Source of the DNA: Rickettsia tillamookensis
GTDB lineage: Bacteria > Pseudomonadota > Alphaproteobacteria > Rickettsiales > Rickettsiaceae
DNA length: 64,000 bases
Reading direction: 5' to 3'
Assembly (NCBI RefSeq): GCF_016743795.2
Contig: NZ_CP060138.2
Coordinates: 806,001-870,000 of the forward strand
The notes under the pieces were generated by a model, which was not told where the DNA came from, did not search any database, and saw nothing but the letters and a program-made list of their open reading frames with translations. Below, piece after piece: positions 43,858 to 57,231 of the stretch (positions are counted from its first letter, which is position 1; each line of letters begins with the position of its first letter). A program made the translations under genes and the position numbers.

Positions 43858-45090
43858 TTAATGTGCAGCCCACTTAATCTTCTTCAAATCAATACCCTCT
43901 TGCATCATTTCCCAAAGAGGACTTAATTCTCTTAATTTATCGATTTTTGAACATATTAAATCTACTGCGTAGTCAACTTCCTGCTCGGTAGTAAATCTAC
44001 CTATGCCAAACCTGATCGAAGTATGGGCAAGCTCTTCACCGATTCCCATGGAACGCAAAACATATGACGGCTCTAGAGAGGCAGAAGTACAAGCAGAACC
44101 GGAGGAAACCGCCAAATCTTTAATAGCAAGGATAATTGACTCTCCCTCTACTCCGGCAAAGCTTAGATTTAGATTGCCTTTATATCTTTGATCTTTATCG
44201 CCGTTTAAATAAACTTCTGAAATTCGGTTGTGTATATTATTCAAAAACCTATCAAATAAGTAATTTACGTGCTTAGTATCTTTTTCCATCTCACTATACG
44301 CTATTTCAGCAGCCATGCCAAGCCCTACGATTAAAGGAGTCGGTAATGTACCCGAACGCATCCCTCTCTCCTGCCCACCGCCGTTTATCAGCGGCGTAAC
44401 ACGCACACGAGGTTTTTTCCTTACATATAAGGCACCTATTCCTTTCGGACCGTAAATTTTATGCCCTGAGATACTAGCAAGATCAATATTAAACTCGTTA
44501 ACATCAATTGGAATTTTACCGAATCCTTGAGCAATATCGGAATGAAAAAAAACGGCTCTTTCACGGCAAATTTTCCCAATTTCCTTTAAAGGCTGAACAA
44601 CACCTATTTCATTATTAACCGCCATAACTGAAACTAACATAGTCTGATCAGTAATGGCATTTTTTAGAGTTTCTAAATCGATTATTCCATTTGGTTTAAT
44701 TGGTAAGTATGTGATTTTTATACCTTCTTGCTCTAAGTGCCTGCAAGCGTCAAGTACGCATTTATGTTCACTGACTATAGTAATAATGTGATTCTTTTTA
44801 TTGCCGTAAAATTTTGCTATTCCCTTTATTGCAAGGTTATTGGATTCGGTTGCACCGGAGGTAAAAATAATTTCTTTAGCATCCGCTCCTATTAACTTTG
44901 CTACTCTACTCCTTGCCTCTTCAACGGCGTTTTCTGCTTCCCAGCCGAAAGAATGACTACGTGAATGAGGATTCCCGAATTTGGTAGTGAAATACGGCAG
45001 CATCTCATCCATTACCCTTGGATCTAGTGGGGTTGTTGCCTGATAATCCATATATATCGGCAAGGTTAAATTGTTTAATTGTTGGTTCAT
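43858..45090 (-). CDS. iscS: Cysteine desulfurase IscS
   Basis: 410 aa PLP enzyme that moves sulphur from cysteine to Isc[16 protein letters not shown] start, [11 protein letters not shown] near residue 77, PLP lysine in [10 protein letters not shown] near 211, and active Cys in [21 protein letters not shown] near 334. Preceded by the NifS-like paralogue and followed by iscU. Confidence 0.95.
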
Positions 45091-45115
45091 ATGGTTTATT
45101 AAATTAATTTTTTTT

Positions 45116-45208
45116 TGTCATTGCGAACGACTGTAAGGAGCGTGGCAATCTCGTCAAATATCCTGAGATTGCTTTGTCAATTACTTCGTAATTTTCCTCG
45201 TAATGACG
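45116..45208. repeat. Family B dispersed repeat overlapping the nifS-like 3' end
   Basis: Ends TGTCATTGCGAACGACTG and TTCCTCGTAATGACG, inner arms GGCAATCTCG and TGAGATTGC. Its last arm is translated as the C-terminus of the NifS-like protein (SVITRKITK). Confidence 0.85.
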
Positions 45209-46329
45209 GAGTTGGAAAGTTCATATTCGTAAATTTCTTCAAAAGCTTCTATAAAAGCCTCTATATCACTTACCGTATTAGTATGGCTCAAAGATACTCT
45301 AATAGAGGAGTTTGCCTCTTCTTCTCCTATACCCATATTGGTTAATACGTGTGATTTAGATATTTTTCCTGATGAGCAAGCAGAGCCGGAACTTATGCAA
45401 ATATTACGTAAATCAAACCCGATTAATTTCACTTGTGCATCCGTATTCGGTATAGTAATTAAGGTAGTATTAGGTAATCTCGCTACGCTATTACTAACAA
45501 TATTTACGTTTGGATATTCTTTTAATTTTTTCTCTAAAATTTCTTGTAAGCTTTTGATTTTTATATATTTTTCTGAGATATCTTTTGTTATTAATTCAGC
45601 TACTAAACCAAAACCTGCAATAGCTAAAACATTTTCAGTACCTGAGCGTACTGACTTTTCCTGCCCTCCTCCTATAATTATTGGAGTAACTTGAAAGTTA
45701 GAGTTAGAGATTAAAGCAGCACCACCCTGCCCCCCTCCTATTTTATGCCCTGAAATTGTCACAAAATTTAATCCTAATTCTTTGATATTTATAGGTATTC
45801 TACCAAAACCTTGCACTAAATCGCTATGAAATCTAGCATCATATTTTTTAGTTATTTTGCCTATCTCCGCTATATCTTGTAAAACTCCGCTTTCATTATT
45901 AGCCATCATTACAGAAACTAGTTTTTTACTAGTATTACTTTGAGCTAACAACTCTTCTAAATGTTCTAAATCAACTAGCCCTTGCGTATTAACTCTTATA
46001 ATTTTAATATTTGGAGCATGCTTTATATGGTTATATATCGATAAATGTTCAATAGCTGAAATAAAAATATCGCCGTCGTAAAAATTTTTCATTATTAAAT
46101 TATTACTCTCAGTCCCTGATGAGGTAAAAGTAATATCATATTCTCTAGATGATAGGGTTATACCAAGAGCTGTCGCTATTTGCGAACGTGCCGTTTCTAT
46201 AACATTCTTAGCAAATCTACCTGAGCTATGTGCTGATGAAGGGTTAAGCTCCTTGTCCATTAAACTTATGATATATTCTTTAATCTTAGGATCGATGAAG
46301 GTAGTAGCATTATGGTCTAAATATATCAT
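45181..46329 (-). CDS. Second cysteine desulfurase (NifS/IscS-like)
   Basis: 382 aa PLP class V aminotransferase. MIYLDHNATTFIDPKI start, TSSGTESNNLIMKN, PLP lysine in SGHKIGGGQGG, and active Cys in SSGSACSSGKISKSHVL. It lies between iscR and iscS, a layout seen in alphaproteobacterial isc operons. Division of labour with IscS is unknown. The last ~9 residues are repeat-derived. Confidence 0.9.
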   Translation of the reverse strand: MIYLDHNATTFIDPKIKEYIISLMDKELNPSSAHSSGRFAKNVIETARSQIATALGITLSSREYDITFTSSGTESNNLIMKNFYDGDIFISAIEHLSIYNHIKHAPNIKIIRVNTQGLVDLEHLEELLAQSNTSKKLVSVMMANNESGVLQDIAEIGKITKKYDARFHSDLVQGFGRIPINIKELGLNFVTISGHKIGGGQGGAALISNSNFQVTPIIIGGGQEKSVRSGTENVLAIAGFGLVAELITKDISEKYIKIKSLQEILEKKLKEYPNVNIVSNSVARLPNTTLITIPNTDAQVKLIGFDLRNICISSGSACSSGKISKSHVLTNMGIGEEEANSSIRVSLSHTNTVSDIEAFIEAFEEIYEYELSNSVITRKITK

Positions 46330-47244: not shown

Positions 47245-48117
47245 TTATATATAACTCGACAGGCTCTTGTTAATTTGCCAAATAGCGACAAATACTAAAC
47301 AAGTTGTAAACATTTGTAGTAGCTGTAATAATATGCTTAATTCCGGTATTAATATAATAATAACCGGTTGTAATATTATCGGGACTCCGCTTGAAAACAT
47401 TACTAACCTTATAGAAGTTTGTATTGAAGTTTTAGTAGTAAGTAAATTAGCTAAGCTATATACTAATAAAACTATAATACTTCTCTCTAATAAGAATGTT
47501 ACAAACCAAAATAATATAATAGCCGGCATACCGAAATAAATAAATAAATTTGGTGCATATAATAAATTATCGGCAAAATATTTTTTTATTATTTCAGGAG
47601 TTAAAATTACTTCATTTTGTTTGAATATCTCAGAATAGTTAACGGTACTTGGGAAATTTTTCTTAGTATTGGCTACAATTAAATTTATCTTCAGCTTATT
47701 CTCTTCAAGTACAAACGGTATTTTGCTTTTTTCTTTGTTAGAAACTTGATTTTTTGTATCAATGACAACTATTTTATTGTTATTCTTGCTATATAGATAT
47801 ATAGGCCCTACTTCTTCAACTGAAATTTTTGAATTATTATATTTAATTTCCGGTAATTGATTGATAATATATTCAATGTTGTCTGTAACTTTTGATGATT
47901 GTATTCCGTTAAAATAATCTTTTAAAGTTATTATGTAATTTAATATAAAAATACAATAAATTATTGATGGGATAAAAGATAAGGTAAATAAATATCTTAT
48001 TCCGTACCCTTGATAGTTTTTATATACGTCTTTATAAAACTCTATAGAGCTAATTGATAAACGTAATTGACGGAGTAATGCACTTAATCCTCCTAATATA
48101 AATGATAATAAATACAT
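47245..48117 (-). CDS. DUF1189-family membrane protein
   Basis: 290 aa. One N-terminal membrane helix (LFTLSFIPSIIYCIFILNY), a periplasmic-type domain of about 130 residues, then three to four C-terminal helices (LFIYFGMPAIILFWFVTFLL; VMFSSGVPIILQPVIIILI; LLQMFTTCLVFVAIW). This is the layout of DUF1189, an envelope family of unknown role. Convergent with the lipoprotein relic. Confidence 0.65.
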   Translation of the reverse strand: MYLLSFILGGLSALLRQLRLSISSIEFYKDVYKNYQGYGIRYLFTLSFIPSIIYCIFILNYIITLKDYFNGIQSSKVTDNIEYIINQLPEIKYNNSKISVEEVGPIYLYSKNNNKIVVIDTKNQVSNKEKSKIPFVLEENKLKINLIVANTKKNFPSTVNYSEIFKQNEVILTPEIIKKYFADNLLYAPNLFIYFGMPAIILFWFVTFLLERSIIVLLVYSLANLLTTKTSIQTSIRLVMFSSGVPIILQPVIIILIPELSILLQLLQMFTTCLVFVAIWQINKSLSSYI

Positions 48118-48675: not shown

Positions 48676-51600
48676 TTAAACAATATTACTATTTTCACCC
48701 TTCTCATCCTGCACGTAAAAATCATTTTTTTTATTCAATATATCATCACGGTTTTTGTATAGATATTCAATAAACAAAATAGAGTCCTTTAAAGCTAGTT
48801 GCACGGCTACATTGTCCTTATCATCTCTTTCTATAGGACCTACAAGTTCTTTAACCTTATTAAATGTTTTTTCTATATTAGCTCGAAATTTCGAAGAATA
48901 AGAATTTGATATATGTATTTCTTGCATTTTTTTGGGATTTATTATTTCGTTTTTACGTTCTTGGGTTTTATTAATAGCTATTTTCTTTAAGTTATCGTCT
49001 AAATCTTCCATTCCGATTGTATTGCGAATAATATCGTTTATACTAATTACTTTATTTTCCTCTTTTCTCTCACGCCTTGCTTCTACTATACTGCAAGCCA
49101 AATTTTTTAACTCATCTATTAAGAGATTTTTCATTATTAAATCTAGACTTTTCGATAATATTTTTATTATACCCTCTTTCTCATTAATATTATTTTTAAA
49201 TATTTTAGTTTCAGCAATACAGCAAGCATTTATGATATTTTTTATATTCCAATAAAATGTATTACAGTAATCGTATAATAATGGGTTTTCTTGTGCTAAA
49301 CTTTCAACTTCTCTAAAGATTTCTGCTTTTTGTATTGTTCCACTATCTTTTAGTGTTTTATCGTGGCTATCTATCTTAATTTCATGGGCATCTAATCTTT
49401 TATTTGCTCCAGCATCTAGTAATTTAAAATTACTGGTTTCCAACCTTATTTTCGCATCTTGAATTATTTCGGTTGCAAACTTAAGCTTACTACTATGTTT
49501 AAATATCCGCTTTTCTTCTTCAAGCTTAAGCTTTTCATTCTTAATAAAGCAGTTAAATTGTTCTTGGGATTCTAATTCGTTAAATAGTTGCCCTCTTAGT
49601 TCTTTGTTAATTTCTGCTGGATAAATGGTTGCTATTTTCTTTAAATTATCCTCACCAAATTTATATATTAGATGTTCACCGAAAATACTTCTTTTTTCTA
49701 AGAACATTACGAACTTATCTTTATTATCACCTGCATAAGATAAAAGATATTTTTCAGTAGAAAGTTTGGTGTTGTCATTTGCAATACTACTTACGTAATT
49801 AATATCACTTGCCGCTATTTTAAGAGCTAAACCTTTATTCAGGAATAAAGGTTTATGCGTTTTATACTGCTCTACTAGCGGATCATCTGTTTCCGCAAGT
49901 AATTTAGTTGCAAACTCTTCTAAACTTACTATTTTGCTTGCTGAATTATCGGTTGTAAATATTTCATAACTTCTATCTTCGAATATTATCTGACCTTCTA
50001 TTCCCGATTCTTTACTAACCGATACCGTAAAAGTAAAATTATATTTCTTTATACAATTTAAAATAAACCTACTCTCGTACTCATTTATAACACCGCTTTT
50101 TAATATGCTTTTACATATTTCTTTTAAAAATATTCGTGTTTCACTTATATTCGGTAGTTCGTTAAAACTCTCAGTAAACCATTCTATCACTTCAGGGTTT
50201 TTACTTTTTTCGTACTCTTGAGTAAGGTGGTGGGTTATTTTGTGTAGGGTGGTTTGGGCTTCTAGGTATAGTTCTTTGTAATGGTCTTTTGTTTTAGTTA
50301 AATCAATTATTGTTAATAATTCATTAATTGGCTTATAACTAGCTTTATTAAGTGGTATTACATTCACTACTTCAATTAAGCTTATAGCAGCTGCATAATT
50401 AATATCATCTTTATGATCTATAATTCTATTTTTTATGAAAGCAAAGGCTTTTTGAGTTAAATTTGATTTTATTTTTACTATCTTTGCAATACTCCTAGTG
50501 GCCTCATACTCAACGTTATAAGTGTTATGAGTTGCAATTATCTCTCTCAAAAAAGTAAAGACTTGCTGGGCTAAACTTGGTGCTCCCTTTACTACCAATG
50601 CTATATTTCTAATAAATTCAGACCTGATATTATATCCGGTATCAGGATTTGTAATTACTAATTTCAAGAAAACAAATGCTTCTTCGGCTAAACTTGACGT
50701 CTTTCTTACTATTTCTATTATGCTTCTAGTAACTGTGGGCTTAATATACTGGTTAGTTTTAGGATTTATAATCACTATTTTTAAAAAAGTAAATGCTTCT
50801 TGGGTAGGCATTACTTTTGCTATTTCCGCTATACTTCTAGTCGTTTCAAATTTGACATCGCTGTTAGCTTTAGGATTTGTAAATAGCTCTTTCAAGAAAG
50901 TAAATGCTTCTGGTACCAAGCTTGGCATCATTATTACTATTTTCGATATGTTTTGAGCAGCTATGGATTGGGTATATGGATCAATTTTAGAATTTGTAAT
51001 TACCCCTTTCAAGAAAGTAAATGCTTCTAAGGCTAAATTTGGGTTTATTTTTACCATCATCGCTATACTTTCAATAGCACTAGGCTTAATATCATAGTCA
51101 TTGTCAGGATTTATATTTATAATTATCACTTTCAAAAAAGTAAACGCTTTTTGTGCCAAACTTGATGCCGCTCTTGTTATTTCAACCATACTTTCAATAG
51201 CTCTAGCCTTAATCTCATATTCATTACCGGAATTCGTAATTATTACTTTTAAGAAAATAAATGCTTCTTGGACTAAATCTAACTTTACATTTGCTATCTT
51301 TGCTATGCCTTTAGTAGCTTCAGACTTGCCCTCATAGTTAATTTTAGGATTCGTAATTATTCCTTTCAAGAAAGTAAATGCTTCCGAAGCTAAATTTGGG
51401 CTTGTTTCTACTATCTCTACTATGCCTTCAGTAGCTACAGATTTAAGATTATTTCCAGCATTAGGATTCATAATTTCCTCTCTCAAGAAAATAAATGCTT
51501 CTCGTGCTAAACTTGGTGTCAATTTTATTATCTCAGGCAAATTATTAGCGATTACATGCTTAACCGCACTATTAGGATTTACAAGTAGCTCTTTTAAAAT

Positions 51601-53937
51601 AATAATTGCTTCTTGAGTAGGTATTGTTTTTACTGCCCAAAACAAGCCAGAGGCAGCTGCAAACTTAAGCTCATAGTTAGGTTTTATAAGTAGCTTTTTT
51701 GAGATAGTAATTGCTTTTTGAGTAGGCATTACTATTAATATTTTAACCAAACTACTAGTAATTAAAGTTTCATTTAAGAATTTATTATTTAGTTTGTGTA
51801 CTTGATTTAATACTTCCTCGCCCAAATCAGGTACAATAGTTATTATTTTGGCTAATATTATTTTTATATATTTATTTAATATCTCTTTATTTAATAACGG
51901 TACTATTTTTTTTAAACTTTCTCGTACTACTTTTTCATCTATTGTCTCATCTAATATTTGTGCTAATTTTTGTAATACTAACTCCTTTAATTGCTTATTT
52001 TTAATTTTTAACAAGCCGATTAATCTTGTATAAACTTTAGTTTTACTACCCCATTCATTTCTATTTGCTAAGCCTGTGATTATTTCTGTAGATGTTTTAA
52101 ATTCTTGAAATACAGCTTCTTTATTTTGTAATTTTTCATTTACTGTTTTAATTATTTTTTCCGATAAATAGCCGCTGTCTATTATATGTTGTTCCCAAAT
52201 TGTAATATCTTTTAGTACAATATCATCTATTAAATTTTGGATTTGTGTTAGATTTGGTATCCTGTTGTCAAATTTCCCATTAATTTTGCTTTGAGCTAAC
52301 AAGTGCATTAATAATATAATCTTTCTTTCAATTCCTAGCTCTAATATTCCGTTAACGTTACATGTTATGGCTTCCCAAAATATTTCTATTAACTCTTGAT
52401 TATCATCATTATTTACTATTCCGGCTAAAAACTTTAAAGTCATTAGATATTTGGGGTCGTTTCGATGCTCACCTATAAAAGCTGCTTTTTCGTTTTTAGT
52501 ATGATTATCTAATAATTGATTTTTTAAACGGAGTGCGGCTAAAAATTCTTGAAATGTTAAATGAATAAATTGATAATTTATTCCTTCTCTTTTTAATAAT
52601 CCTTGTTCTATAACTTCATCTATATCTAATGTATCTCTCTTATCTTCTACTAATTTCCTTTCAACTAATTTACCTGTTGCAACGAGTGACTCATAGGCTA
52701 TCTGCTCTAAAAATCTCATTATGTTTTTTAAGTGATTATTAGCTTCTGTTTTATTCTTATATTTATGCTGGGTTTTTGCTAGATGCCTATTATTAAGCCA
52801 ACTTACTACTTCATGATATAGTTGACTTATATTAAAATCTTCATCACTGTTTTTTTGAAATTTATCCCTTATATCTTTATCGCTCCAAACCAAACATATT
52901 AATGCAGTATTGATAGGAACTACGCATATTTCTTTTATTTGGCTATGAGTATCCAAAAAGCTTTTTAATTGCACTCCTAACTCTTTATCATACTCAAAAT
53001 TTTTATTTACATATTGCTCTATTCCCTCACTATCCCAGCCTGTATTTTCTACTTTCCGCTCAAACCTGTTACTCATTTCTTCTACAACCGCATTAGGTCT
53101 AGAAGTCATTATTACGTTTTTATATTCTAATATTTTATCTATTAACTTTTTAAATTCATCTCGAATATTTAAATGTGCTACTTCGTCATACCCGTCAAGT
53201 AATAACAATATCTTATCTTTATTTTGGATATCCATTATTTCTTTAACGCTTAACGTACTTTCACTACCGCCTAAACAATAATGGATAAAACAATTAAGCT
53301 TACTTTGAGATAAATTATTAATATCAAAATACCCACTATAACCGTCTTTCCAACTTTCATTTAACAATTCCTTTAACTTAACTCTAAATACGTACTCAAA
53401 TTTATTATTCCATAAATTTCCTTTTCCCCATTTATAAGATAGATAATGCATTAACGTGGTTTTACCTATTCCTGCACTACCGAGTAATAATACTTTACCT
53501 ATATCTGATTGAATTCTGCTTATTGATTCAGCTATATTTTTTATTTCCGATTCACTTTTATTAGGTAGATTCCTGCGAAGTATATCAAACTTTTTTTTCT
53601 CATTTTTTTCTTCGTTTAGTAATTCAACTATATTATCAATCTCATCATACTTATTAGGTAGCTCTTTCTTAAGCAGCTCCCTTATCTTTTTTCCCGTATT
53701 TATAGCTTTAAAAATTTTCTCTATTTCTACCGGTTTCTTTTCTCCGACAACTTTATCGCGTAATGCTGCTTTATCTGCTTCATCGCTTTCACTCAGTAAT
53801 ATCTGTAATTTTACATAATATTCCTCTAACGATTGAGCTTTGATTTTCTCATCTTCTATTAGCTTTGGTAAAGTATTGTGAGAGCTATATAAGGTTCTTA
53901 ACTTGTCAGTTAATGATTTTGAAGTAGAAAGCTTCAT
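48676..53937 (-). CDS. NACHT-domain STAND NTPase with HEAT-like repeats
   Basis: 1753 aa, the largest gene here. A helical N-terminal region (1-145) precedes a NACHT NTPase: Walker A GSAGIGKT (153-160), Walker B LLLLDGYDE (about 244-252), and VIMTSRPN (275-282). Helical domains follow, with FIHLTFQEFLAALRLKNQL near 465, as in NLR-type winged-helix regions. From about 735 to 1200 at least 12 HEAT-like repeats of ~39 residues (pattern P-L-A-x-E-A-F-x-F-L-K-x-I-I-x-N-P) form a sensor-like solenoid. The C-terminal ~550 residues are helical and not recognised. Such proteins are known as bacterial antiphage NLR relatives; here a role against phage or as a host effector is open. No stop or shift is visible. 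Confidence 0.85.
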   Translation of the reverse strand: MKLSTSKSLTDKLRTLYSSHNTLPKLIEDEKIKAQSLEEYYVKLQILLSESDEADKAALRDKVVGEKKPVEIEKIFKAINTGKKIRELLKKELPNKYDEIDNIVELLNEEKNEKKKFDILRRNLPNKSESEIKNIAESISRIQSDIGKVLLLGSAGIGKTTLMHYLSYKWGKGNLWNNKFEYVFRVKLKELLNESWKDGYSGYFDINNLSQSKLNCFIHYCLGGSESTLSVKEIMDIQNKDKILLLLDGYDEVAHLNIRDEFKKLIDKILEYKNVIMTSRPNAVVEEMSNRFERKVENTGWDSEGIEQYVNKNFEYDKELGVQLKSFLDTHSQIKEICVVPINTALICLVWSDKDIRDKFQKNSDEDFNISQLYHEVVSWLNNRHLAKTQHKYKNKTEANNHLKNIMRFLEQIAYESLVATGKLVERKLVEDKRDTLDIDEVIEQGLLKREGINYQFIHLTFQEFLAALRLKNQLLDNHTKNEKAAFIGEHRNDPKYLMTLKFLAGIVNNDDNQELIEIFWEAITCNVNGILELGIERKIILLMHLLAQSKINGKFDNRIPNLTQIQNLIDDIVLKDITIWEQHIIDSGYLSEKIIKTVNEKLQNKEAVFQEFKTSTEIITGLANRNEWGSKTKVYTRLIGLLKIKNKQLKELVLQKLAQILDETIDEKVVRESLKKIVPLLNKEILNKYIKIILAKIITIVPDLGEEVLNQVHKLNNKFLNETLITSSLVKILIVMPTQKAITISKKLLIKPNYELKFAAASGLFWAVKTIPTQEAIIILKELLVNPNSAVKHVIANNLPEIIKLTPSLAREAFIFLREEIMNPNAGNNLKSVATEGIVEIVETSPNLASEAFTFLKGIITNPKINYEGKSEATKGIAKIANVKLDLVQEAFIFLKVIITNSGNEYEIKARAIESMVEITRAASSLAQKAFTFLKVIIININPDNDYDIKPSAIESIAMMVKINPNLALEAFTFLKGVITNSKIDPYTQSIAAQNISKIVIMMPSLVPEAFTFLKELFTNPKANSDVKFETTRSIAEIAKVMPTQEAFTFLKIVIINPKTNQYIKPTVTRSIIEIVRKTSSLAEEAFVFLKLVITNPDTGYNIRSEFIRNIALVVKGAPSLAQQVFTFLREIIATHNTYNVEYEATRSIAKIVKIKSNLTQKAFAFIKNRIIDHKDDINYAAAISLIEVVNVIPLNKASYKPINELLTIIDLTKTKDHYKELYLEAQTTLHKITHHLTQEYEKSKNPEVIEWFTESFNELPNISETRIFLKEICKSILKSGVINEYESRFILNCIKKYNFTFTVSVSKESGIEGQIIFEDRSYEIFTTDNSASKIVSLEEFATKLLAETDDPLVEQYKTHKPLFLNKGLALKIAASDINYVSSIANDNTKLSTEKYLLSYAGDNKDKFVMFLEKRSIFGEHLIYKFGEDNLKKIATIYPAEINKELRGQLFNELESQEQFNCFIKNEKLKLEEEKRIFKHSSKLKFATEIIQDAKIRLETSNFKLLDAGANKRLDAHEIKIDSHDKTLKDSGTIQKAEIFREVESLAQENPLLYDYCNTFYWNIKNIINACCIAETKIFKNNINEKEGIIKILSKSLDLIMKNLLIDELKNLACSIVEARRERKEENKVISINDIIRNTIGMEDLDDNLKKIAINKTQERKNEIINPKKMQEIHISNSYSSKFRANIEKTFNKVKELVGPIERDDKDNVAVQLALKDSILFIEYLYKNRDDILNKKNDFYVQDEKGENSNIV

Positions 53938-54255: not shown

Positions 54256-55632
54256 ATGCTACTGCTACTTCCTGAAATAACTTTGACTTTAATAGCACTT
54301 TTAGGGCAGTTTTTTGCCGTAATGATCCCAAATAAAAATAGAATTATTTCTAATATCATTATTTTATTATGTATATTATCAATTTTTCTTACCTTTAAGT
54401 ACTCAAGCTATGAAGGAGTATGGTACTCATTTGCTACCGGAATAAATATCGGTATTAGTAAAAGCATAGTACTGCTATTCACTATTATATCCATGATTAT
54501 ATACCGTGATTACTCTATTCTTGTTGCTGAGGAATTAAAATTTGAATTTATCACTTTAATATTATTATCGGTCGTAGGTATTTTTGTTGCAATTTCATCA
54601 CGGAATTTTCTATTATTATTCTGTGGTATGGAGCTTACTGCTTTAACTTCATATGCACTTGCAGGATTCAAATTAAATGATATTAAATCATCGGAAGGTG
54701 CTTTAAAATACTTTATCTTAGGTAGTTTAGTTAGTTGTTTATCATTATTCGGGATTTCTTTTATATACGGATTCGGCGGAAGCCTACAATTTGAGGATAT
54801 CTTATATAAACTAAATGATAATTCTGGGATGAATCTTGGTTTAATAATCGGTATTGTATTATTTTTAAGTAGTATTTTCTTTAAACTCTCAAGCGTTCCA
54901 CTCCATTTTTGGGTTCCTGACGTATATGAAGGATCACCGATTAGTTCGGTTACTTATTTCACCGCTGCCTCAAAAATAGGTATGGTTATTGTTTTATTAA
55001 ATATTAGCAAATTAATTATAGGTAATTACTATCCTATTAATTATAATTTAATAAAGATAATTGCTATATTATCTATGCTGTTTGGAGCTTTTGGAGCTAT
55101 TCGTCAAACTTCTCTAAAAAGATTAATGGCTTATAGTACTATTTTAAATATCGGTTATGTATTAATTGGCGTTCTTCTGCATAATCAAGAAGGGTATAAA
55201 GCAGCTTTACTATATATTCTAATATATGCGGTAGGAAGTATAGGATTTTTTACTTGCTTAATCATGCTAATCGGTAAAGACGCCGATAAAGCTAGTTTTA
55301 AAACTATACAAGGAATTGCAGAGAACCATAAAACTATAGCTGCCGTAATTAGCATAGTTATGTTCTCGATGATCGGAATTCCTCCTCTCACAGGATTTTT
55401 TGGTAAATATTACCTTTTTTACCAAGCAATTAATCAAGAAGAATTCGTATTAGCTTATTGTGGTATTTTTACCAGCGTAGTTGCTGCTTTTTATTATCTT
55501 AAAGTAGTAAAAGCCATGTATTTTTCTAAAAAGATTGAGATAATTAAGCTTCCTATGCAATATGGGCTTTTACTGATTAATTACTTAGTTGTAGGCTTCT
55601 TGTTGCTCGGTTCATTTATTATCTCGTTTTAG
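54256..55632 (+). CDS. nuoN: NADH-quinone oxidoreductase subunit N
   Basis: 458 aa, about 14 membrane helices, an antiporter-like proton-pumping subunit of respiratory complex I. Family stretches: [56 protein letters not shown] (with conserved Lys), [15 protein letters not shown]. Other nuo genes are not in this window, so it lies apart from an operon or at its edge. Its 3' end overlaps the convergent kinase-like gene by 14 nt. Confidence 0.93.
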
Positions 55633-57160
55633 CCGGTGTAGACTTTTTATTAACAACATTAGACGAAGTAATTTTTGTAGGCTTCATAACCTTTTCTTTT
55701 AGATTCTTTATATGTTTTAGATCTTCTTCATCTAATTTTAATAAATCTTGGTCTTTCTGTTTAGCTTTTCTAACCAAACCTAATTGACTTGGAGTAACAC
55801 TAACAATATCATCCGTTCCGACTTCTTTCTTAAATTTTTCTAGAGCGTCTACATATTCTCTATTTGTATCTATATTTGTCTTTACAGATTTTTGTTTTGG
55901 TTCTTTCTTTATTTTATCAGAAGAATCAGCTAAATTTCTTTCATCTTTAATATCTTCATTTAAACTTTTTATTGTCTTTATTAAATGTTTTTTCGCACTA
56001 TCCCTAATACCGAGTATTTCTAAAATTCTTGCAAAACTAGTAGTAATTTTATTTCTTAATTTAAGTTTTTGTCCTCCTTTTTTTCTTTCTTCATAATTAA
56101 GAATTTTCTCAAAATAATCAGGATAATCTTTCATTAATGTTTTTAATCCTTGCTCTTTCACTTCGTAATAAGGAAAACTATATTTTTTAGAAATTAAACT
56201 ATTTACTTTAATTTCTAAGCCGTATTCCTTTAAGGATTCTTGCCTTTTTTTCATTGTATCTATTAAACTAGCCTTAATTTCTTCAGGCGTTATTTCTTTA
56301 GACTTTTTATTATTAAATTTCTTTGGCATTGCTTGTTTTGCAAATTCTGCAATTGCTTCATTACTATAATATTTAGTTAATTCATCAAAACTTTTATCAA
56401 TGGTTTTGCTTAAATCAATTTTAGAAGCTGCAAGTAAGCTATCGGCAAAATTAGGATTTTTTGTTCTTAAATTAGAAGGGAATTCTCTAAAATGATTAGT
56501 GGAACCGAATCCAGGCAAATGTTTGGCTCTTGAATGCGGGTAGATATTATTTGTTAAATTATCAAAACTACCGGCAAAATCAATTCTTACTAATTTAGGT
56601 AAAGTTTTTGGATTTTTTTGATCTCTGATAACTCCTATATTTCCAACATGTATATCAAAATCGCCGATCAATAAACTTGCCGGCATAATGTTTTCAAAGT
56701 TCTGATACTTAATTTCCTTAAAAGCATTTTCTAAGGTTCTAAATAATTTATTTCTAGCTCCCATAAAAAGCGGTCTACCACCGTCCTTTCTAAACCAAGA
56801 ACTCGGTTTAGTTTTAGCAGACATATGTTTATCCATGTCCACATACATATCACTACTATAATTCTCAAAAAATTCAGATTTGACATATATTTGTGAATCA
56901 ACGGCTTTAGATTTATTAAAATCATCAGGAGCAATTAAATTAACCTTTGCTCCATTTCCGGGACTTATAGCTTCAAAAATTTGGGATCCTAAAAACTCGG
57001 CTATATTTTTTGAGCTTGAAGCCTCTTTTTTTATCATCGCCGTAATTTTACCGTCTGAGCTTTGATATACGCCGCCATGCTCTCCTGCTTCATTAGCTCC
57101 GCCTCCTTTAGGCTTTAAAAAATTCCAACCTTTAAATACTGATTTTTTATCTTTAGTCAT
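55619..57160 (-). CDS. Kinase-like protein, candidate secreted effector
   Basis: 513 aa from the ATG at 57160 (GGAGAG lies 8 nt upstream; an earlier frame start at 57181 lies before that site). It has a kinase-like N-lobe: glycine-rich [19 protein letters not shown], then TAMIKKE (candidate ATP Lys) and [12 protein letters not shown] (candidate helix-C Glu). The catalytic motif G-D-F-D-I-H-V-G-N (near 172-180) and the metal motif R-I-D-F-A-G-S-F (near 198-205) follow the PI3/4-kinase-like pattern (GDxDxHxGN...DFG). A Lys-rich helical C-terminal half and charged tail follow. No signal peptide. Resembles rickettsial and Legionella kinase-fold effectors; Risk1 of R. typhi is a possible relative, unverified. 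Confidence 0.65.
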
Positions 57161-57231
57161 TTTTTTCTCTCCATAATACAAAATTTGGATTTAAGTATAT
57201 TTAATTCCAATTAAATAAAATATATATTATA

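Follow-up and report, generated by a model that had tools for sequence, protein, structure and literature searches.

A NACHT-HEAT protein of Rickettsia tillamookensis with NLR-like architecture and a two-module C terminus, a candidate switch for the host cytosol

Results

The stretch of DNA analysed here, called the window throughout, comprises 64,000 nucleotides of the chromosome of Rickettsia tillamookensis (contig NZ_CP060138.2, positions 806,001 to 870,000), and our subject is one gene on its minus strand at window positions 48676..53937. The gene is an open reading frame (ORF) that starts with ATG, is free of stops and encodes 1753 residues; all domain coordinates given below are on the same strand. 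PF05729 matches residues 149-315 (52993..53493) with an E value of 2.3e-17 and 63.7 bits against a cut-off of 26.7, which places the protein in the NACHT/STAND group. By eye, the stretches GSAGIGKTT, LLLLDGYDE and FIHLTFQEF are intact; we take them to be Walker A, Walker B and part of the winged-helix region. G156, G158, K159, D248, D251 and E252 are invariant in an alignment of 20 sequences.

Comparison of a predicted structure with known ones revealed the core arrangement of NLRs, NBD-HD1-WHD-HD2, in which residues 331-610 (52108..52947) form the NLR-type helical and winged-helix region. The alignment of the model begins at residue 7, paired with residue 134 of NLRP3. Ahead of the NACHT domain lies only a short conserved segment, the N-module (residues 1-125, 53563..53937), in which no enzyme domain was recognised; scanned within the whole protein, it gave no match of its own in Pfam, NCBIfam or PADLOC. 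The NLR-like architecture is strongly supported by this comparison.

The AlphaFold2 model of residues 1-1200 (mean predicted local distance difference test score 83.8) has less regular helices from residue 563 onwards, including those of residues 611-722 (51772..52107), and then 12 successive helix pairs at 723-1174 (50416..51771). None of the Pfam HEAT models scored in the protein at an E value of 0.1. The hydropathy of residues 720-1180 has a period of 39 residues, with an autocorrelation of 0.298 against a highest value of 0.197 in 500 shuffles, and the structure matches of the solenoid are the PP2A scaffold, importins and CAND1. A C-terminal solenoid of the NLR type is thus present in the model, and its role as a sensor is putative. 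A preliminary description from the sequence alone had read the gene as a 1753-residue NACHT NTPase with a 12-unit HEAT-like solenoid and NLR-type architecture in an intracellular bacterium; the frame, the domain, the repeat number, the architecture and, by the genus, the lifestyle are all borne out.

The same description held that the C-terminal part of about 550 residues matched nothing known and might hold a new effector domain. Indeed, Pfam, NCBIfam and PADLOC gave no match there, but the region is conserved in relatives. A search of about 5.8 billion proteins, in which scoring was limited to the 7,992 candidates with the most words in common, recovered 111 relatives; at an E value of 1e-3 the NACHT segment matched 109 of them, the following helical part 106, the N-module 36, C1 28 and C2 15. 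C1 (residues 1241-1480, 49498..50217) is a conserved hub past the HEAT array, delimited by its profile and beta-rich in the model; C2 (residues 1481-1753, 48679..49497) is a helical module, defined by profile, alignment and motif scan, that is common to TPR-like proteins. Among 126 rows that match the NACHT profile, after removal of repeats of P0030 and P0006, 37 have C1 and 17 have C2. The profiles were built from 31 (NACHT), 19 (C1) and 18 (C2) rows, many of the counted rows among them and the window protein itself in those of C1 and C2; rows outside profile building still match (P0008 and P0013 to C1 with 2.2e-73 and 3.4e-73, P0134 to C2 with 2.1e-90, and the Megaera plasmid protein described below to both). 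C1 occurs without NACHT in 17 rows, all of them from the C-terminal search and all fragments, from Rickettsia where a source is named. A profile made from five Rickettsia proteins recovered 12 proteins, 11 of which, 495-782 residues in length, have C2 without C1 and NACHT; C2 is therefore a module of its own. Of the five proteins behind that profile one passes a Pfam TPR cut-off, and four of the 12 have Pfam TPR entries, hence the term TPR-like. Judged from these profiles, the C terminus consists of two modules, neither with a Pfam match; the new domain suspected earlier becomes two undescribed modules, both with relatives. In the symbiont of Omalisus, two stretches (L103 and L104) have adjoining TPR-like ORFs, one per stretch with C2.

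Some family members carry further domains behind C1. P0030, a protein of a Rickettsiales endosymbiont of Peranema, continues after C1 with a TIR domain (1831-1922, E value 5.9e-11) and Peptidase_C48 (2128-2260, 23.7 bits against 20.7), and C2 gave no match. P0010 has C1 and C2 and then C48 at 2305-2364 (25.0 bits). An N-terminal C48 domain (33.4 bits) is present in P0039, a NACHT protein that is more distantly related and lacks C1. A C48-like motif seen by eye in P0026 lacks Pfam confirmation. C48 enzymes cleave eukaryotic SUMO- or ubiquitin-like proteins, and their presence in relatives therefore favours a eukaryotic target.

Several relatives look as if they were exported. We scored a 13-residue stretch with a mean hydropathy of at least 1.9, optionally preceded by a segment of net positive charge, a simple rule and not a trained predictor. 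Such an N terminus is found in 13 of the 35 family members (of 36) that have room for it before NACHT, 12 of them with the positive segment, against nine of 65 other bacterial NACHT loci and five of the 69 remaining NACHT matches (three with positive charge in each set). The difference between family and bacterial loci has a p value of 0.011 (Fisher), but with a smaller control and a two-row NACHT profile the hydrophobicity contrast was not significant (13/34 versus 6/30, p 0.17). At the other end, P0006 (CVMQ), P0012 (CVTS), P0020 (CVVS) and P0025 (CVIC) terminate in a CaaX box, the signal for prenylation; these are four of 36 members, against 0.10 predicted by internal frequencies (P 4e-6). 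Since P0012 and P0020 share 52% identity, this amounts to about three independent cases. Two of the 12 TPR-C2 proteins also end in CaaX (P0136 with CSVS, P0140 with CSIF; 0.03 expected, P 4e-4), as does L133 of the same order (CILI), and none of 67 other bacterial NACHT loci does. P0006, P0012 and P0020 combine both features. A signal-peptide-like start together with a CaaX end makes little sense in the bacterial cytosol, which is our chief reason for proposing a host-directed role; the evidence comes from relatives and not from the window protein.

A number of observations weigh against such a role. The window protein itself does not start like a signal peptide (its highest hydropathy over 13 residues is 0.47) and ends in NSNIV, hence without a CaaX box, and none of 19 Rickettsia-type C-terminal matches has one. 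Its C2 is also missing a hydrophobic P-x-x-G motif that 15 of the 18 C2 sequences in the alignment possess and that P0003 retains; the output of this copy may therefore be different or weaker. The 13 export-like N termini are distributed over eight members of the group P0011-P0024, P0006 and P0009, P0012 and P0020, and the lipoprotein-like P0007; given this kinship the counts are not independent, and the lower p value of 0.00016 obtained with the charge rule comes from a rule that was introduced after a first look at the data. CaaX boxes are not confined to the C1 family, since four of 75 other NACHT matches, including one from Legionellales, have them as well (0.43 expected, P 0.001). P0006 comes from an alphaproteobacterial metagenome-assembled genome that is not named as a symbiont. 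A plasmid of Megaera (L102:11920-19530) encodes a 2536-residue NACHT protein with C1 (7.8e-47) and a weak C2 (1.9e-4) among transposase and integrase genes, a setting that suits a defence gene equally. Finally, the gene has been lost from most of the genus.

Three side observations belong to the same subject. By eye, internal GCCTVL, SCIVC and SCIVM in P0005, P0035 and P0036, respectively, resemble former CaaX ends that were extended behind. P0055, a NACHT protein of Legionellales outside the C1 family, ends in the CaaX box CVVM, and its precomputed Pfam list has PF01764, presumably a lipase family. Next to the gene of P0006 lies an ORF of 1340 residues (L024:3311-7333) with a signal-peptide-like start and, by eye, repeats of the leucine-rich type, a second candidate for an exported protein. 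In the literature on NACHT proteins in Rickettsia and Rickettsiales, on endosymbionts, on CaaX effectors and on bacterial NLRs, as far as it was accessible, we found no description of export or prenylation for the C1-C2 family.

The C1-C2 family is a clade of 44 with a support of 0.998 in a FastTree phylogeny of 171 NACHT regions (377 columns, rooted at the midpoint), and none of four NLRP3 matches from turtles and tortoises falls inside. The five Rickettsia-type rows group together (1.0); P0005, P0006, P0009, P0010 and P0016 attach to them at 0.815, followed by P0007, P0008, P0013 and the P0011-P0024 group at 0.915; P0012 and P0020 stand outside. An earlier tree (84/87 rows, two-row NACHT profile) gave the same neighbours with 0.911. 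Animal and fungal sequences are placed elsewhere in the tree, and a recent gain of the gene from a host is therefore not supported. Few sources are named among P0001-P0036: Rickettsia, Tisiphia, the Peranema endosymbiont and a gammaproteobacterial metagenome-assembled genome. At 1e-5 the full protein matches 25 of 261 genomes of the order and none of 50,697 phage records, and the C1-C2 part of L024 matches only the window genome among the 385 genomes of the class and 398 of the phylum that were drawn.

Within Rickettsia, matches to the gene are found in 19 of 23 genomes, or in 18 if G091 is set aside, where the match is confined to the C2 of a TPR-like protein. The orthologous site is marked by the conserved flanks nuoN (54256..55632, plus strand) and, on the opposite side, a DUF1189 gene (47245..48117, minus strand); the gene or its remains lie beside nuoN in at least 10 of the 23 genomes, including that of the window, and several genomes have a second copy. 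Uninterrupted copies were seen in only two of the 23, that of the window and that of the Omalisus symbiont (1806 residues), where interruptions were called by reading the ORFs in five broken genomes and from frames and stops in the others. Judged in this way, the gene is decaying in most of Rickettsia and whole in the window genome. The latter also carries a relic of another copy of the NACHT gene (G000:C1:413252-413380), which covers residues 1390-1433 with one stop and is perhaps the trace of a second locus like that of R. felis. The preliminary description had named a frameshift or a lost Walker motif in relatives as evidence against it; most Rickettsia copies are indeed interrupted, but between the two whole ones the ratio of nonsynonymous to synonymous divergence (dN/dS) in the NACHT core is 0.12, which indicates purifying selection.

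Compared with the pieces from R. felis and G166, the window gene has a synonymous divergence of 0.27-0.42, against 0.03-0.05 in the flanking nuoN and DUF1189 genes. Its identity to the second R. felis copy is 97-100% at codons 601-800 and 98-99% at codons 1001-1200, but 71-73% at codons 201-300 and 901-1000. The values for bins in the HEAT part carry more uncertainty, as an alignment of repeats may slip by a unit. Codons 201-300 (window 53038-53337) come in two types, with 93-98% identity in five copies and 54-75% in eleven, and these types cut across species and loci (copies in L109, L115, L112, L023, L026, L028 and others). Such a mosaic argues for exchange between copies and not for simple descent. 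In comparisons with the Omalisus symbiont and R. felis the NACHT core has a dN/dS of 0.08-0.12, and HEAT and C2 have values of 0.51-0.54; with G166 the ratio is 0.37 in HEAT and 0.34 in C2, the NACHT core not being comparable. This points to a conserved switch with faster-changing ends.

Further along the window, at 43858-46329, two presumably iscS-like genes stand in tandem beside a presumably iscR-like one; cross-matches put the mutual identity of the former at about 33-40%. On the other side, nuoN alone lies between the NACHT gene and a LepB_N-type gene (PF18640, 128.8 bits) at 55619-57181 on the minus strand. The latter corresponds to the Risk2 type of lipid-kinase effector described in the accessible part of PMC11077975.

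Discussion

The window protein is a NACHT/STAND member and, by its C1 and C2 modules, belongs to a NACHT-HEAT family for which we found no name. On present evidence it works like an NLR. Neither a bNACHT/Avs-type defence protein nor an effector is thereby proven. We put the chances at about even that the gene encodes a STAND/NLR-type switch that is delivered by the bacterium and acts, most likely, in the cytosol of the eukaryotic host. Among the ideas of the preliminary description, an effector mimicking host NLRs fits best, by the signal-peptide-like starts, CaaX boxes and C48 and TIR domains of relatives, although neither an export signal nor a CaaX box is present in the window protein.

In the resting state, the core would hold ADP and pack against the helical region, as it does in NOD2 and NLRC4. 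A ligand, either a host protein or the product of a competing microbe, may bind to the HEAT array; loading with ATP would then drive assembly, which C1 could couple to the C-terminal output. This output would be C2 at a membrane, helped in some relatives by host prenylation, and TIR or Ulp1-like domains in other family members. The presumed output would thus be C-terminal, unlike the N-terminal output of classical NLRs. In Rickettsia delivery would probably proceed by the rvh type IV system, of which we looked for the VirD4-type coupling protein and found it in the genome of R. tillamookensis. It is tempting to extend this to a general picture in which symbionts export NLR-like sensors, prenylated or membrane-bound, into the host cytosol to watch host responses, competing microbes or viruses by way of a fast-evolving HEAT array with a C-terminal output, the Rickettsia version being mosaic, mostly dying and still whole here; as a whole this is speculative and probably too far-reaching.

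The strongest competitor, in our view unlikely though to be taken seriously, is a defence system inside the Rickettsia cell of the bNACHT/Avs kind, in which a phage, plasmid or other mobile element would be sensed by the HEAT array and the death or arrest of the cell brought about by the C-terminal domain. NACHT, sensor and output domains are the plan of known bacterial defence proteins, as far as the available descriptions go, and TIR combined with NACHT, as in P0030, occurs in defence systems, too. A plasmid-borne relative among transposases, a diversified HEAT array with mosaic exchange between copies and the lack of export signals in the Rickettsia proteins are all compatible with it. However, no PADLOC family matched at E values up to 1 (the 2023 library, which may lack bNACHT clades), the phage records gave no match, and the genes nearby comprise nuoN, one for a kinase of the effector type, DUF1189 and isc genes. 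Export-like N termini, CaaX boxes and C48 domains in relatives also speak against it. Abortive infection, put forward in the preliminary description, draws on the missing export signal, the plasmid relative and the TIR-NACHT combination and fits less well than an effector.

It is rather improbable that the window copy is a decaying relic of no important function that has stayed unbroken by chance, like the broken copies of sister species. The small number of whole copies in the genus and the remnant elsewhere in the same genome would agree with this, but a stop-free frame of 5.3 kb and the low dN/dS of the NACHT core are not expected of a long-dead gene; a recent loss of function would look alike. 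Least probable of all, and in our opinion quite improbable, is a recombining self/non-self marker directed by bacterium against bacterium among co-infecting symbionts, for although the two sharply different NACHT types, the near-identical blocks common to the window and the second R. felis copy and the synonymous divergence far above that of the flanks would suit it, no small ORF resembling an immunity partner directly adjoins the gene (ORFs of at least 90 residues) and the prenylation boxes of relatives are meaningful only in a eukaryotic cytosol.

Bacterial NACHT proteins are commonly read as anti-phage systems. If export and prenylation of the relatives are true, bacteria would equip eukaryotic cells with NLR-type switches, too, and such a family would allow one to test whether host immunity is blocked, mimicked or supplemented. 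The switch proposed here for the host cytosol offers two modules for which there is no Pfam model and a clear prediction of the part of the protein that holds the output.

Compared with the animal NLRs NLRC4, NOD2 and NLRP3, the window protein has HEAT repeats in place of leucine-rich repeats, extra C1 and C2 modules past the solenoid and no CARD or PYD that we could see, and its family forms a clade of its own. The prenylated effectors AnkB, PelC and PelE of Legionella share the C-terminal CaaX box with family relatives, in the descriptions accessible to us, and not with the window protein; to our knowledge they are not NLR-like. A NACHT ATPase ORF of R. felis is the same gene, a copy at the same nuoN site broken into ORFs of 658, 127, 138 and 641 residues; the accessible text of PMC4316617 names it only as NACHT ATPase and notes its loss in other Rickettsia. 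Like the window protein, bNACHT25 and bNACHT12 are single-gene bacterial NACHT proteins. The available part of PMC12169576 gives the anti-phage bNACHT proteins an N-terminal DNase with NCH1, or SNaCT domains; compared by description, the window protein has about 125-148 residues before NACHT without a recognised effector, and its near relatives look exported. The closest precedent in idea, as far as the accessible text goes, is the NACHT protein of the eukaryotic association module of phage WO in Wolbachia, proposed to act on eukaryotic cell death (PMC5062602): both are NACHT proteins of symbionts of the rickettsial order, but that of phage WO is prophage-borne and has ankyrin repeats and a latrotoxin C-terminal domain, whereas the window gene is chromosomal and combines NACHT with HEAT, C1 and C2.
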